A stretch of 32,808 nucleotides of DNA, taken from an uncultured Bacteroidales bacterium. GTDB taxonomy: Bacteria; Bacteroidota; Bacteroidia; Bacteroidales; UBA3824. Below the pieces are notes generated by a model. It was not told where the DNA came from. It did no database searches and saw nothing but the letters and a program-made list of their open reading frames with translations. The stretch is taken from NCBI GenBank assembly GCA_905233995.1, contig CAJOGF010000011.1:1-32808 (forward strand). The letters are read 5' to 3'. Shown piece by piece: positions 19,714 through 23,636 of this stretch (position 1 is the first letter of the stretch; each line of letters opens with the position of its first letter). A program made the translations under genes and the position numbers.

Positions 19714-19748
19714 ACGGTTGTCTGAGTTTTTCAGCAGCCGTTTTTTTT
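19714..19748 (+). terminator. Rho-independent terminator after the siaB-siaC pair
   Basis: ACGGTTGTCTGA at 19714-19725 pairs with TCAGCAGCCGT at 19731-19741 (one G-U pair and one bulged T, five-base loop), followed by a run of eight T. It would end the transcript coming from siaC and perhaps from the dcw cluster. Confidence 0.85.
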
Positions 19749-19776
19749 GTGTATTGATAAAAAAACGTTACCTTTG
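19746..19776 (+). promoter_or_regulatory. Putative promoter of the first Rpn nuclease gene
   Basis: TTTG at 19746-19749 and TACCTTTG at 19769-19776, 19 bases apart, match the Bacteroidota -33/-7 consensus. Transcription would begin near 19783, giving a very short 5' leader before the ATG at 19799. The -33 box overlaps the T tract of the upstream terminator. Confidence 0.7.
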
Positions 19777-19793
19777 CCGTCATAAAAACGTTA
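19761..19793 (+). repeat. Pair of direct repeats AAAAACGTTA around the Rpn promoter
   Basis: The ten-base word AAAAACGTTA occurs at 19761-19770 and again at 19784-19793, 23 bases apart. One copy overlaps the -7 box, the other the expected start of transcription. It contains the palindrome AACGTT, so a repressor site is possible. Confidence 0.5.
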
Positions 19794-19798
19794 TCATT

Positions 19799-20698
19799 AT
19801 GAAATATTACGACCCTCGTGCAGATGTATTGTTTAAAAAGATTTTCGGGCGCAACGAAGACCTTACGATTAGTTTTTTGAACGCAATGTTACCGTTAGAA
19901 GGTGATGGAAGAGTTCAAACGATAAAGTATTTGCAACCCGAAGAGTTGCCGATAATTCCCGAACTTAAAAACAGCATAGTTGATGTTTTGTGCGTTGATA
20001 TAAATGGTCGGACATTTGTAGTTGAAATGCAGATGTATTGGACATCGTATTTTAAGCGACGTATACTTTTCAACGCAGCGAAAATGTATGTTACTCAAAT
20101 TGAAAAAGGAGAAAACTACGACGCTTTAATGCCTGTTTACGGTTTGAATATTGTGAACGATATTTTTGATTCGACGAGTGAGGATTATTATCATCGTTAT
20201 AAAATGTGCGAGCAGTCAAATCCCGAAAAAACAATTGACGGAATCGAATTATTTTTCTTTGAACTGCCGAAATTTAAGCCGAAAAATTTTTCGGAAAAGA
20301 AAATGCAGTTTTTATGGTTGAAATTTTTGACGGAAATCAACGAAAAAACTGTAAACGTAGACCCCGCGCTTTTTGAAAGTCCTGAAATTACCAAAGCGTT
20401 GGATATTTGTACCTACTTAACGCAAGAAGAGATTTTGGGTTATGATATGTATTGGGATGCTGTCAGTACAGCCAAAACTCTTGCATCGGGAAAATTTAAG
20501 GACGGAATGGACATCGGTCTCGAAAAAGGAGAGAAAATCGGTCTTGTAAAAGGTCGTGCGGAAGGTCGCACCGAACAACTCGTTGAAAGCATTAAAAACC
20601 TCATATCTGCCGGTTTTGATTTTGATAAAGCAGTTGAAATGTTAAAAGTTCCTTCCGACCAAATCCCCGAACTCAAACGTTTGGTTTTTAACTCTTAA
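19799..20698 (+). CDS. Rpn family recombination-promoting nuclease / putative transposase (PDDEXK_2)
   Basis: I choose the ATG at 19799 (299 aa, MKYYDPRADVLFKKIFGRNE); the frame is open further upstream, but that part overlaps the terminator and promoter. The Rpn (PD-(D/E)XK) catalytic residues are visible as Asp62 in SIVDVLCVD and EMQ at 76-78. The C-terminal tail has the G-rich repeats common in this family (GLEKGEKIGLVKGRAEGR) followed by a small helical domain. Rpn proteins are DNA endonucleases that can promote RecA-independent recombination, and some have been linked to phage defence. In-frame Met237 is preceded by AAGGA, so a short C-terminal product is possible. It is a stand-alone gene with its own promoter. 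Confidence 0.88.
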   Translation: MKYYDPRADVLFKKIFGRNEDLTISFLNAMLPLEGDGRVQTIKYLQPEELPIIPELKNSIVDVLCVDINGRTFVVEMQMYWTSYFKRRILFNAAKMYVTQIEKGENYDALMPVYGLNIVNDIFDSTSEDYYHRYKMCEQSNPEKTIDGIELFFFELPKFKPKNFSEKKMQFLWLKFLTEINEKTVNVDPALFESPEITKALDICTYLTQEEILGYDMYWDAVSTAKTLASGKFKDGMDIGLEKGEKIGLVKGRAEGRTEQLVESIKNLISAGFDFDKAVEMLKVPSDQIPELKRLVFNS

Positions 20699-20718: not shown

Positions 20719-20750
20719 TTTGCCATAACTGTTAATTTTTGTTACTTTTG
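20719..20750 (+). promoter_or_regulatory. Putative promoter of the leader / peptide / lipoprotein operon
   Basis: TTTG at 20719-20722 and TACTTTTG at 20743-20750, separated by 20 bases, are a full match to the Bacteroidota consensus. Transcription would begin near 20757, giving a leader of about 247 bases before the first gene at 21004. That leader holds a small ORF, a pentamer repeat and a hairpin. Confidence 0.75.
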
Positions 20751-20802
20751 CACATTACAAACCCTATTAAACAATAAAATTTAACTAAAACTTAAAATAA
20801 AA

Positions 20803-20886
20803 ATGTTGCAAAATTCAATAGAAATATTACAACGCAACGCAACGCAACGCAACGCAACGCAACGCAACGGTATCTTTATACCTTGA
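20803..20886 (+). CDS. Possible 27-aa leader peptide spanning the CAACG repeat
   Basis: ATG at 20803 opens a 27-codon frame ending TGA at 20884-20886: MLQNSIEILQ, then QRNAT-type repeats encoded by the pentamers, then NGIFIP. Because the repeat unit is 5 bases, gain or loss of a unit changes the frame. Loss of one unit gives a stop at 20889-20891. Gain of one, or loss of two, gives a longer frame ending TAA at 20939-20941, inside the loop of the downstream hairpin. No ribosome site is visible, as is common here. It may be a regulatory leader or a chance ORF. Confidence 0.45.
   Translation: MLQNSIEILQRNATQRNATQRNGIFIP
20830..20869 (+). repeat. Eight perfect tandem copies of CAACG
   Basis: The pentamer CAACG is repeated eight times without error over 40 bases, in the transcribed leader between a promoter and a hairpin. 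Perfect short repeats of this kind change length by polymerase slippage and are a classic base of phase variation. Confidence 0.95.
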
Positions 20887-20918
20887 TTTAGACACTTTAT
20901 ATATAGTTGATAATATAG

Positions 20919-20970
20919 AAATCCCTTGCGGACGGAAATAAAAATTCTGTCCGCAAGGGATTTTTGTTTT
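20919..20970 (+). terminator. Strong leader hairpin with T-rich tail (terminator or attenuator)
   Basis: The arm 20919-20937 pairs over 19 positions with 20945-20963 (all Watson-Crick except one G-T), leaving a 7-base loop ATAAAAA. TTTTTG and TTTT follow. It sits about 160 bases into the transcript and 33 bases before the first operon gene, so it would stop or limit expression unless opened. Confidence 0.75.
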
Positions 20971-21003
20971 TGTAAGTTTTATATTTTAAAAATTTTAAAA
21001 GAT

Positions 21004-21168
21004 ATGACAGAAAAATTAGAAAAAGTCGTAAAGGACGTAACGACAAAAAAGAAATACGTTAAACCCGATTTTGAGGTTTATGAGTTGAATTGGGAAGCAC
21101 CGCTTTTGAGTGCAAGCGGTCCTAACTCAGATGCGACATTAGGTGCTTCAAGTTATTCAAAGTGGTAA
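21004..21168 (+). CDS. 54-aa peptide of unknown function (YVKPDFEVYEL type)
   Basis: The ATG at 21004 is the natural start, just after the leader hairpin. The product is Lys-rich at the start (MTEKLEKVVKDVTTKKK), then YVKPDFEVYELNWEAPLLSA, then a Ser/Gly/Asn-rich end. Short ORFs with a K-Y-x-K-P-x-(F/M)-E-V-Y-E core and a following Leu-Leu-Ser/Thr segment are, as far as I recall, common in Bacteroidales and unassigned. It has no signal peptide or membrane segment. The lipoprotein gene starts 15 bases after its stop with a strong ribosome site between them, so they form an operon. A precursor-peptide or small-regulator role is possible but unsupported. Confidence 0.65.
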   Translation: MTEKLEKVVKDVTTKKKYVKPDFEVYELNWEAPLLSASGPNSDATLGASSYSKW

Positions 21169-21183: not shown

Positions 21184-22374
21184 ATGGAAAAAACTTTTTT
21201 AAGAATTCTGCCCTTGGCAGCGGCAGTTTTGCTTGCAACCTCTTGCAGCAAAGACGAGAACAATGACAATGCAGTTGTAAACAACGGACAGGAAACCGTT
21301 CAGACTAAAACCTTGCCGATTTCAATTACGGTAAATCAAAAAGGTCTTTCAAAACTCAGTTGTACCGGCGATATGGAAGAGGATCTTCAACCGATTTTTG
21401 AGCCCGGTGATGAACTCGAAATTTATTATAAGGACGGCGGTTTTTTGAAGACGTTAGAAGTTACTGAGGGTAATATCAGCAACGACGGTAAAACCGCAAC
21501 CTTTGAAGGCGAAATCGTTGGTGGCGGACTTGTAGACGATGTGACAAAGTTAACCGCAAAAATAGGTACTCCGATTACAGCGGCAGTAACCGCAACTTCC
21601 CGTGAAGATGCTGTAAAAAAAGGCTGTTATCAGACAGCGGATTTTATATATTCTGCTGAGGGAAACCATATTTCTTTGGAAGAACAAAACGCTTATATTG
21701 AAGTTGTTTGGAAAAACCAAGGCGGAGAAACTGTTAATTTTTCGATAGACGGCAACCCTGTTACTTTGAATTTGAACGGCAGCGGACAAGGTTGGATAGT
21801 TGTTCCCGACGGAGTATCGCTTACATGTGAAGCCCTTGGCATTACGGAGGCAAAAAAGGCAGAAAAGGCTAATATTTACGGAATAATCCGTAAGTTTGTT
21901 CCCGGCGGTTACGTTGACCTCGGCGTTGTATTGGACGATGGAACAGAAGTTTATTTTTCGAGCACTGTTACTTCTACGGGTGTTGCTTGGAGTGCCAAAA
22001 CTGATGAAGAACGAGCAGATTGGCCTACTGTAAACGAATTTGAAAACCTTGTATCTGATTGTTATTGGCAGTGGGGCAATGACGGTACTAAGAATGGTTA
22101 TTATGTTTTCAAAATTCATGCCGATGCGGATAAAGGTAAGATTACTAATTCGAGCAGCAATTATTCACCAATTACTCCATATAGTATAGAGGACGACTCG
22201 TACATTTTTCTTCCGGTTTCAGATGGCGCCATCGGCTATTACTGGTCGAGAGAGTCCACCGGTGACTATGCGTTTTGTTTGCGCTCCGACGAGGCCGGCG
22301 TGTACCCGAAGAACCGCGTTATCCAAAAGACCAAGGGTACGCCGGGGGTTGTTACGGTTCGGCGCAGCAATTAA
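21184..22374 (+). CDS. Surface lipoprotein with fimbrillin-like N-terminal part and FISUMP-like C-terminal domain
   Basis: The product is 396 aa. It starts with a lipoprotein signal, MEKTFLRILPLAAAVLLATS followed by Cys21, and a Lys/Asp/Asn-rich stretch. Residues ~40-230 resemble the beta-rich N-terminal part of fimbrillin-like lipoproteins (FEPGDELEIYY, GKTATFEGEI). From ~237 on it looks like a FISUMP-type domain: GGYVDLGV, then DWPTVNEFENLVSDCYWQW, NGYYVFKI, YIFLPVSDG, GYYWSRESTGDYAFCLRSD and a final VVTVRRSN. Such domains adopt C-type-lectin-like folds and are found in variable surface proteins. The last ~50 codons are far richer in GC than the rest of the gene. It is probably exported to the cell surface as a binding protein; its ligand is unknown. 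A terminator follows. Confidence 0.75.
   Translation: MEKTFLRILPLAAAVLLATSCSKDENNDNAVVNNGQETVQTKTLPISITVNQKGLSKLSCTGDMEEDLQPIFEPGDELEIYYKDGGFLKTLEVTEGNISNDGKTATFEGEIVGGGLVDDVTKLTAKIGTPITAAVTATSREDAVKKGCYQTADFIYSAEGNHISLEEQNAYIEVVWKNQGGETVNFSIDGNPVTLNLNGSGQGWIVVPDGVSLTCEALGITEAKKAEKANIYGIIRKFVPGGYVDLGVVLDDGTEVYFSSTVTSTGVAWSAKTDEERADWPTVNEFENLVSDCYWQWGNDGTKNGYYVFKIHADADKGKITNSSSNYSPITPYSIEDDSYIFLPVSDGAIGYYWSRESTGDYAFCLRSDEAGVYPKNRVIQKTKGTPGVVTVRRSN
22222..22374 (+). other. GC-rich 3' end of the lipoprotein gene, candidate variable region
   Basis: By hand count about 57% of these 153 bases are G or C, in a window that is otherwise clearly AT-rich. The change begins at the codons for DGAIGYYWS and ends at the stop codon. 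Position (last 150 bp of the gene), fold (FISUMP/C-type-lectin-like) and composition fit the variable region of a diversity-generating retroelement target. No template repeat or reverse transcriptase is in the window. Confidence 0.4.
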
Positions 22375-22406
22375 CCATGTTTAACGAATGGATTTTATTA
22401 ATAAAA

Positions 22407-22442
22407 ACGGCTATCGAAAAATCGGTAGCCGTTTTTTTTTTT
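22407..22442 (+). terminator. Rho-independent terminator after the lipoprotein gene
   Basis: ACGGCTATCGA at 22407-22417 pairs with TCGGTAGCCGT at 22422-22432 across a 4-base loop (one G-T pair), followed by eleven T. It lies 33 bases after the lipoprotein stop. Confidence 0.92.
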
Positions 22443-22473
22443 GCGACGAACAATTTTTAAAAACCTAAACATC

Positions 22474-23313
22474 ATGGGAAATTATATTCGTTTTGATTGG
22501 ATGATAAAACGTCTCTTGCGCAACAAAAGTAGTTATGTTGTGTTAGAGGGCTTTTTGAGTGTGCTTTTGAACCGTCAGATAAAGATAAATCAAGTTCTTG
22601 AAAGTGAAAGCAATCAAGAAGAAAAAGAACAAAAATTCAACCGTGTTGACCTTCTGGTCGAGGACGAAAACAAGGAGAAAATTTTGATAGAAGTTCAGAA
22701 CGACCACGAATTGGATTTTTTTCAACGCATGGCTTTCGGCGCATCAAAAATTATCACCGATTATATGAAACTTGGTGAGGCATACAAAACTATACCGAAA
22801 GTTTTTTCAATTAATATTGTTTATTTCAGTTTAGGTCAGGGCAAGGGCTATGCTTATCACGGCACGACGGTTTTCAGAAATATGTTCAATGCTGATGATG
22901 AACTGAAACTTTCCCCTGCTCAGAAAACTAAATTCGGTGTAGACGAAGTTGCAGGCATTTTCCCTGAATATTATATTTTGCGTGTTAATAAGTTTGACGA
23001 TGAAGTTACGACACCTTTGAAACAGTGGATTTCATTTTTGAAAACGGGTGAAATACCTGATGCTTTTAACGCTCAGGGCTTGGAAGAGGCTCGTAATATT
23101 CTCCGTGTAGATTCCCTCAGTAAAGAGGATCGTCAAGTTTATAAGCGTTATTTGGAAGGTCTCAGTTTGGCTGACGGATTTGGCGCAGGTCGTGCGGAAG
23201 GCGAAAGGCAACAAGCCATTGCCATTGCCCGTAATCTAAAAGCCGCAGGGCTTGATATTGACTTTATCGCTCAAAACACAGGTTTAACAAAAGACGAGAT
23301 TTTAAAACTTTAA
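22474..23313 (+). CDS. Second Rpn family nuclease / putative transposase (PDDEXK_2)
   Basis: The ATG at 22474 gives 279 aa starting MGNYIRFDWMIKRLLRNKSS, a well-known beginning for Bacteroidota Rpn proteins; earlier in-frame codons overlap the terminator T tract. VLESESNQEE is followed by the catalytic motifs: Asp59 in FNRVDLLVE and EVQ at 73-75. The C-terminus has GAGRAEGERQQAIAIARNLK and a short helical tail ending in LTKDEILKL. Its tail shares the 14-base word ggtcgtgcggaagg with the first Rpn gene, but the N-terminal halves differ, so they are two subfamilies rather than a recent duplication. No separate promoter is obvious; it may rely on read-through. Confidence 0.88.
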   Translation: MGNYIRFDWMIKRLLRNKSSYVVLEGFLSVLLNRQIKINQVLESESNQEEKEQKFNRVDLLVEDENKEKILIEVQNDHELDFFQRMAFGASKIITDYMKLGEAYKTIPKVFSINIVYFSLGQGKGYAYHGTTVFRNMFNADDELKLSPAQKTKFGVDEVAGIFPEYYILRVNKFDDEVTTPLKQWISFLKTGEIPDAFNAQGLEEARNILRVDSLSKEDRQVYKRYLEGLSLADGFGAGRAEGERQQAIAIARNLKAAGLDIDFIAQNTGLTKDEILKL

Positions 23314-23378
23314 AATCCCACAAAAAATTGTCTGTTTGTCGTATGTTAATCTAATGTTAATAAAAAGGCAAAATGAAA

Positions 23379-23636
23379 ATTGCAAGGTGCAAAATGATTT
23401 TTCCATAGTGGAGAAGTCAACATTGCAAGGTGCAAAATGATTTTTCCATAGTGGAGAAGTCAACATTGCAAGGTGTAAAATGATTTTTCCATAGTGGAGA
23501 AGTCAACATTGCAAGGTGCAAAATGATTTTTCCATAGTGGAGAAGTTAACATTGCAAGGTGCAAAATGATTTTTCCATAGCGGAGAAGTCATCATTGCAA
23601 GGTGCAAAAAAGTTTTTCCATAATGGGGAAGAAAAA
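23379..23636 (+). repeat. Six tandem copies of a 43-bp unit
   Basis: Units start at 23379, 23422, 23465, 23508, 23551 and 23594, always 43 bases apart. Each begins ATTGCAAGGTGCAAAATGAT and continues TTTTCCATAGTGGAGAAGTC. Units 1 and 2 are identical, units 3 and 4 each carry one change, unit 5 a few, and unit 6 is degraded. TTTTCCA-TAG-TGGAGAA in each unit could form a small stem. 43 is not a multiple of three and stops abound, so the array is not coding. It has no spacers, so it is not CRISPR. It fills most of the gap before rpsL. Confidence 0.97.

Follow-up and report, generated by a model that had tools for sequence, protein, structure and literature searches.

The stretch of DNA analysed here (the window: 32,808 nucleotides (nt) of contig CAJOGF010000011.1, from an uncultured Bacteroidales bacterium) contains, between a promoter-like site and a two-gene operon, a leader in which a pentanucleotide repeat lies inside a short open reading frame (ORF) and is followed by a terminator-like hairpin. 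It is likely that this leader is a phase-variable transcription attenuator. A survey of 18 genomes of one uncultured rumen Bacteroidales genus yields 65 leaders of the same general layout, and suggests that these bacteria possess dozens of repeat-and-hairpin switches for the random ON/OFF control of their surface proteins. A preliminary description of the window had proposed such a switch: its observation is confirmed, with promoter, ORF, repeat, hairpin and operon all lying where it placed them, and its interpretation is supported, as the best explanation of the 65 related leaders.

The locus is read on the forward strand. It begins with a promoter-like site of the Bacteroidota type at 20719-20750 (TTTG at 20719-20722, then TACTTTTG at 20743-20750, the latter fitting TAnnTTTG); the TAnnTTTG motif is present in exact form 5' of 19 of 64 leaders, against 10% at random. 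The leader ORF (20803-20886) starts with ATG at 20803, runs for 27 codons and ends with TGA at 20884-20886; it spans the proposed slippage tract, eight CAACG units at 20830-20869, all of them perfect. A spacer with frame-dependent stops (20870-20917) leads to a hairpin of 20 pairs with the tail TGTTTTTG (20918-20964; the T-rich tail occupies 20961-20972), a predicted intrinsic terminator between the leader ORF and the first structural gene. Folding of the leader region is strong relative to shuffled sequence (z = -6.6), and an Rfam search of the window returned no match. If the first C of the stem (20923) is taken as the reference point, the three reading frames end at -39 (20884, the current frame), -34 (20889) and +16 (20939): two stop early, the assembled frame among them, while the third stays open through the spacer and into the 5' arm, to end within the loop. 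This is exactly the frame geometry previously described for eight, seven, and nine or six units. The ORF ends at 20886, and in any frame by 20941, that is, before the gene start at 21004. Phase variation by a simple sequence repeat within the coding sequence was rejected for the window: the repeat is not part of the frame that encodes the switched protein.

How would such a leader work? RNA polymerase would initiate at 20719-20750 and a ribosome would trail it on the leader ORF; the mechanism assumes that ribosome and polymerase are coupled in this genus. Slippage in the CAACG tract would fix the frame in which the ribosome leaves the repeat. With eight (or seven) units the ribosome would stop 34-39 nt 5' of the hairpin, the hairpin would form, and the peptide and lipoprotein genes would go untranscribed (OFF); with six or nine units the ribosome would enter the 5' arm and hold the hairpin open, and the operon would be read (ON). 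The window copy, as assembled, would be in an OFF frame. A like switch, built on differing repeats, would precede many of the genus's genes for lipoproteins and secreted proteins.

The same order of parts recurs across the genus: a promoter comes first, then a short ORF that spans a simple repeat, and after it a long, GC-rich hairpin whose tail consists of T; the genes that follow encode a small peptide and/or a lipoprotein or secreted protein. The repeat is poly-G, CA, CAACG or CGCAT, with units of 1, 2 or 5 nt and never 3 or 6: multiples of three are absent. In the window's own genome the arrangement of leader and hairpin is also found on three other contigs (C150, C27 and C168) with CGCAT/CATCG repeats, and a further contig (C84) terminates within an AACGC tract directly after an ATG. 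Elsewhere in the genus, tracts of CAACG or of CGCAT lie 5' of a like hairpin and peptide-lipoprotein genes, and in the DNA upstream of many copies of the peptide gene the equivalent site is occupied not by a pentamer but by poly-G followed by TAAAA, or by (CA)12. GGGGGGGTAAAA is found at 60 places, in all 18 genomes, as against two for the reversed control. A terminator-like hairpin lies within 120 nt of 45 of 61 poly-G tracts, compared with 48 of 1500 random positions; its 5' arm starts 34-49 nt past the tract in 41 of these 45 cases, and an open ATG is placed 37-50 nt 5' of the tract in 42 of them (14% at random positions). Because TAA follows the tract, one poly-G frame always stops at once. 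Chance is excluded as the source of the recurrence of the whole layout. Outside the genus, poly-G followed by TAAAA shows a weak excess (about 105 against 71 controls) and a hairpin accompanies only 3 of 30 poly-G tracts; the layout is therefore, within the sample, a trait of this genus. Contigs end in or beside the repeat at a number of places (G000:C84, G004:C51/C59, G008:C47/C66 and G014:C264/C314/C337), and locus counts in these draft assemblies are therefore too low. No motif is common to poly-G, CA, CAACG and CGCAT, and on that ground the notion that the repeat serves as a protein- or RNA-binding motif was rejected.

The hairpin shows strong compensatory change. In 28 unlike leaders, both-sided changes are found at 12 of 17 stem pairs, with 94% of cells paired; the stems covary with a score of 0.475, where shuffled alignments give 0.183 and slid registers at most 0.13. 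The median stem energy over the 65 leaders is -30.2 kcal/mol. These observations bear on the rival account that the locus is made of ordinary neighbours: the Rpn-family gene upstream is terminated by the hairpin, a frame has stayed open by chance in AT-rich DNA, and the repeat is neutral. A PDDEXK_2 (Rpn) gene does end just 5' of the switch, and when one locus is considered alone, chance will often leave a frame open into the hairpin. On the other hand, a promoter-like site separates the Rpn gene from the repeat, many other leaders have no Rpn gene in front of them, repeat and hairpin occur together at a set distance throughout the genus, the hairpin covaries, and chance is rejected by clustered shuffles at 70-80% clustering (see below). 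The promoter, the spacing, the other leaders, the shuffles and the covariation led to rejection of the hairpin as a mere terminator of the Rpn gene, and the account as a whole is quite improbable.

The frames themselves can be put to statistical use. A clear ATG is present in 63 of the 65 leaders. If a frame is called OFF when it stops at least 28 nt 5' of the hairpin (the limit comes from work on Streptococcus gallolyticus, discussed below) and ON when it stops closer or inside, none of the 63 lacks an OFF frame or an ON frame; two ON frames are present in 39 leaders and one in 24; as assembled, 47 are OFF and 16 ON. Against dinucleotide-shuffled spacers the layout is found in 30 of 30 clusters when leaders are clustered at 80% (22.2 +/- 2.4 expected; equalled in 0 of 1000 shuffles) and in 17 of 17 at 70% (12.5 +/- 1.8; p = 0.004).

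Several points weigh against an attenuator all the same. Clustering at 60% leaves seven clusters, all with the layout, and no significance (p = 0.13); a count on coarse clusters, 13 of 13 against 10.6 expected, is likewise not significant (p = 0.06), and the earlier caution that an open frame of this kind could be chance holds for one locus taken by itself. The ON and OFF thresholds come from the S. gallolyticus pil1 paper and from the observed range, which makes the frame test partly post hoc: the thresholds were picked with the data in view, and the test is therefore support, short of proof. The leader ORFs have no codon-position bias (289, 234 and 276 differences at positions 3, 2 and 1), and there is therefore no independent sign of leader translation from that quarter, although the absence of bias fits a leader whose peptide is immaterial. 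Finally, the CGCAT class is nearly invariant, with five units in 9 of 10 perfect tracts; the tenth has eight, which leaves the frame unchanged.

Could the repeat slip, and matter, in some way that does not involve a terminator blocked by a ribosome? It might act through RNA folding, messenger RNA stability or translation of the first gene, the hairpin being a processing or stability element. The stem sequence (CCCTTGCGG/CCGCAAGGG) is conserved beyond what termination needs, in several leaders a further inverted repeat lies between the tract and the hairpin, and the leader peptide is unconserved; all three would suit such a scheme. It has more difficulty with the T tail immediately 3' of the stem, with the tight spacing (34-49 nt) of poly-G and hairpin, with the presence of OFF and ON frames in 63 of 63 leaders, and with repeats so unlike that they have no common RNA motif and yet are all non-triplet. 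We consider it unlikely. The character of the leader peptides also disposes us against a regulated attenuator of the trp kind, which would sense translation speed or an amino acid and for which the repeat would be a structural device. A leader ORF followed by a terminator is the classical layout of such attenuators, but the leader peptides show no amino-acid conservation and differ between repeat classes, with no amino-acid selection; no common run of regulatory codons is seen; and the types and lengths of the repeat vary. We give this scheme very little credence.

Among copies with 85-99% identical flanks tract length differs, often across states. L191 (G7, OFF) and L195 (G8, ON) have 97% flank identity, L227 (ON) and L229 (OFF) 95%, and L259 (G8, OFF) and L299 (G7, ON) 88%. 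Other CAACG copies have 5, 8, 9, 12 or 13 units. The window locus itself has a syntenic orthologue in another species of the genus (G008), with flanks that align with it at 74-87% over about 19 kb, and there the tract has five units in place of eight; counting units in relatives had been proposed as a check on the switch, and what the counts cover is a difference between two species and between close copies. (A search of viral contigs with three leader patterns gave no strain-level variants.) The promoter-like stretch at 20719-20750 is identical in the G008 orthologue, promoter and ORF start together differ very little, and no alignment is obtained for the body of the lipoprotein gene. When the locus is compared with L343 (window positions 21291-23632), the leader, the start of the peptide and the signal peptide are its only aligned parts, set between flanks that align. 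As we read it, the lipoprotein body and the part following it have been replaced between the orthologous loci: a cassette exchange behind a conserved switch. A 43-bp unit in about six copies (23379-23631), between an Rpn-family gene and rpsL, is also unaligned in the G008 orthologue.

What is being switched? The first gene of the operon (21004-21168) encodes a 54-residue peptide of what may be called the KKKYVKPDFEV family, recognised by a family search of the genus: 84 copies among the matches listed, in 15 of the 18 genomes. (A technical note: contigs were scanned for the peptide with one alignment, A1; a more diverse one, A2, is too variable.) The peptide is the usual first gene; its core is conserved, its tail varies greatly, and it belongs to no Pfam or NCBIfam family. 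The core reads KKKYVKPDFEVxEL..PLLxxSG, and hypervariable tails are found joined to more than one N-terminal half, as though recombination had shuffled them. The second gene is a lipoprotein gene, nearly always with a TSCSKD-type lipobox; at other loci secreted proteins follow directly. In the window it occupies 21184-22374, encodes 396 residues with the lipobox LLATSC, and is followed by a further terminator-like hairpin at 22403-22436. Its AlphaFold model has a mean predicted local distance difference test score of 61 overall and is confident only for residues about 40-240, where a fimbrillin-like beta-sandwich (40-243) is predicted. The best structural matches of this domain are Bacteroidales fimbrial and adhesion proteins, with Z of 8-10 over 173-189 residues; Mfa3, Mfa4 and FimA stand lower among the matches. 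The protein has no match in Pfam or NCBIfam and no sequence relative in the PDB, and it is fold similarity alone that links it to FimA/Mfa-type fimbrillins. These structural matches make it probable that the switch would control a fimbrillin-like surface adhesin, as judged from the resemblance of a modelled fold. Some relatives have C-terminal FISUMP or Lcl_C matches, below curated cut-offs.

A few observations on the surroundings of the leaders can be added. The PDDEXK_2 (Rpn-family) gene of the window lies at 19718-20698, and such a gene is commonly found directly 5' of pentamer leaders. A repeat-rich insert resembling a miniature inverted-repeat transposable element (GTGATGTATTACCGGGGGTTCACACCCCCGTCTATTATGTATCACCCC...) lies between hairpin and peptide gene in L051, L152, L155, L158 and L161. 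At L309 a poly-G leader and hairpin stand 5' of a gene with a UvrD/Rep-type helicase-like start (GPGSGKT motif) and no surface protein. Poly-G followed by TAAAA also lies within the coding sequence of secreted proteins, in the part for the N-terminal signal-peptide region (L295, L297, L298, L307, L312, with its poly-G at about 400, and L252). There one frame continues for hundreds of bases: this is classical coding phase variation, in which the tract and stop of the leaders are reused.

Phase variation in the Bacteroidota is known mainly through DNA inversion, and poly-G contingency loci inside coding sequences are known from Neisseria, Campylobacter and Helicobacter. The poly-G leaders resemble the latter in that slippage of a homopolymer sets a frame, and the genus has the coding form too, in its signal peptides; they differ in that the attenuator has its tract in a leader ORF of its own, ahead of a terminator and outside the structural gene. 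With trp-type attenuation the leaders would share the principle that the formation of a terminator depends on where a ribosome stands in a leader ORF; the input would be the number of repeats in DNA, where that of trp is the supply of an amino acid. If leader translation does control termination, it would be evidence for ribosome-polymerase coupling in Bacteroidota. Random ON/OFF control of surface structures is what the invertible promoters and genes of Bacteroides also provide, through recombinase-mediated inversion of DNA (PMC11868660); no inversion is needed or seen here. The 2025 review of phase variation just cited lists inversion for Bacteroides, and the words attenuation, terminator and leader peptide are absent from it.

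The closest counterpart is found in another phylum. The pil1 and pil3 loci of S. gallolyticus have GCAGA repeats in a leader ORF, with low-state stops at 39-49 nt, and have been shown by experiment to be phase-variable attenuators, chloramphenicol, start-codon and terminator controls supporting the case (Danne et al. 2014; PMC3894217). In both settings a pentanucleotide repeat in a short leader ORF is followed by a stem-loop terminator (a predicted one here) and then by genes for surface fibres, or, in the window, for a protein with a fimbrillin-like fold only. The stop distances agree as well: in pil1 the OFF/low frame stops 28-49 nt 5' of the hairpin and the ON/high frame 4 nt before it or inside (PMC3894217), while the window has -39, -34 and +16 and the 63 leaders cover equal ranges. 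The repeats (CAACG and GCAGA) and the genes are unrelated, several repeat types (poly-G, CA and two pentamer families) serve here, and the two loci of S. gallolyticus compare with many in this genus, which are known from sequence alone. Pil1 and the genus leaders being unrelated in sequence, the likeness is therefore one of working only, and it probably represents convergence. The preliminary description knew of no union of attenuation and repeat slippage in Bacteroidota. For the phylum that stands, no precedent having been found in the literature searched, mainly outside subscription journals; the union itself had already been demonstrated in pil1 and pil3 (PMC3894217). The principle, then, is known, and what appears to be new is its independent use in Bacteroidota, at many loci and with several repeat types. 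If the switches are real, random switching would be set at a transcription terminator by slippage in a leader ORF, at many loci whose differing repeats were chosen independently; metagenomic reads would give ON and OFF states, locus by locus, for the surface proteins of uncultured rumen bacteria; and a seemingly exotic streptococcal mechanism would become a general solution. With some reserve, we favour the view that the genus has a whole set of independent repeat-gated attenuators, of at least four unlike repeat types, by which a mosaic repertoire of fimbrillin-like lipoproteins is switched at random. They would be the first switches of this type in Bacteroidota, convergent with pil1, and the most extensive known use of the device.
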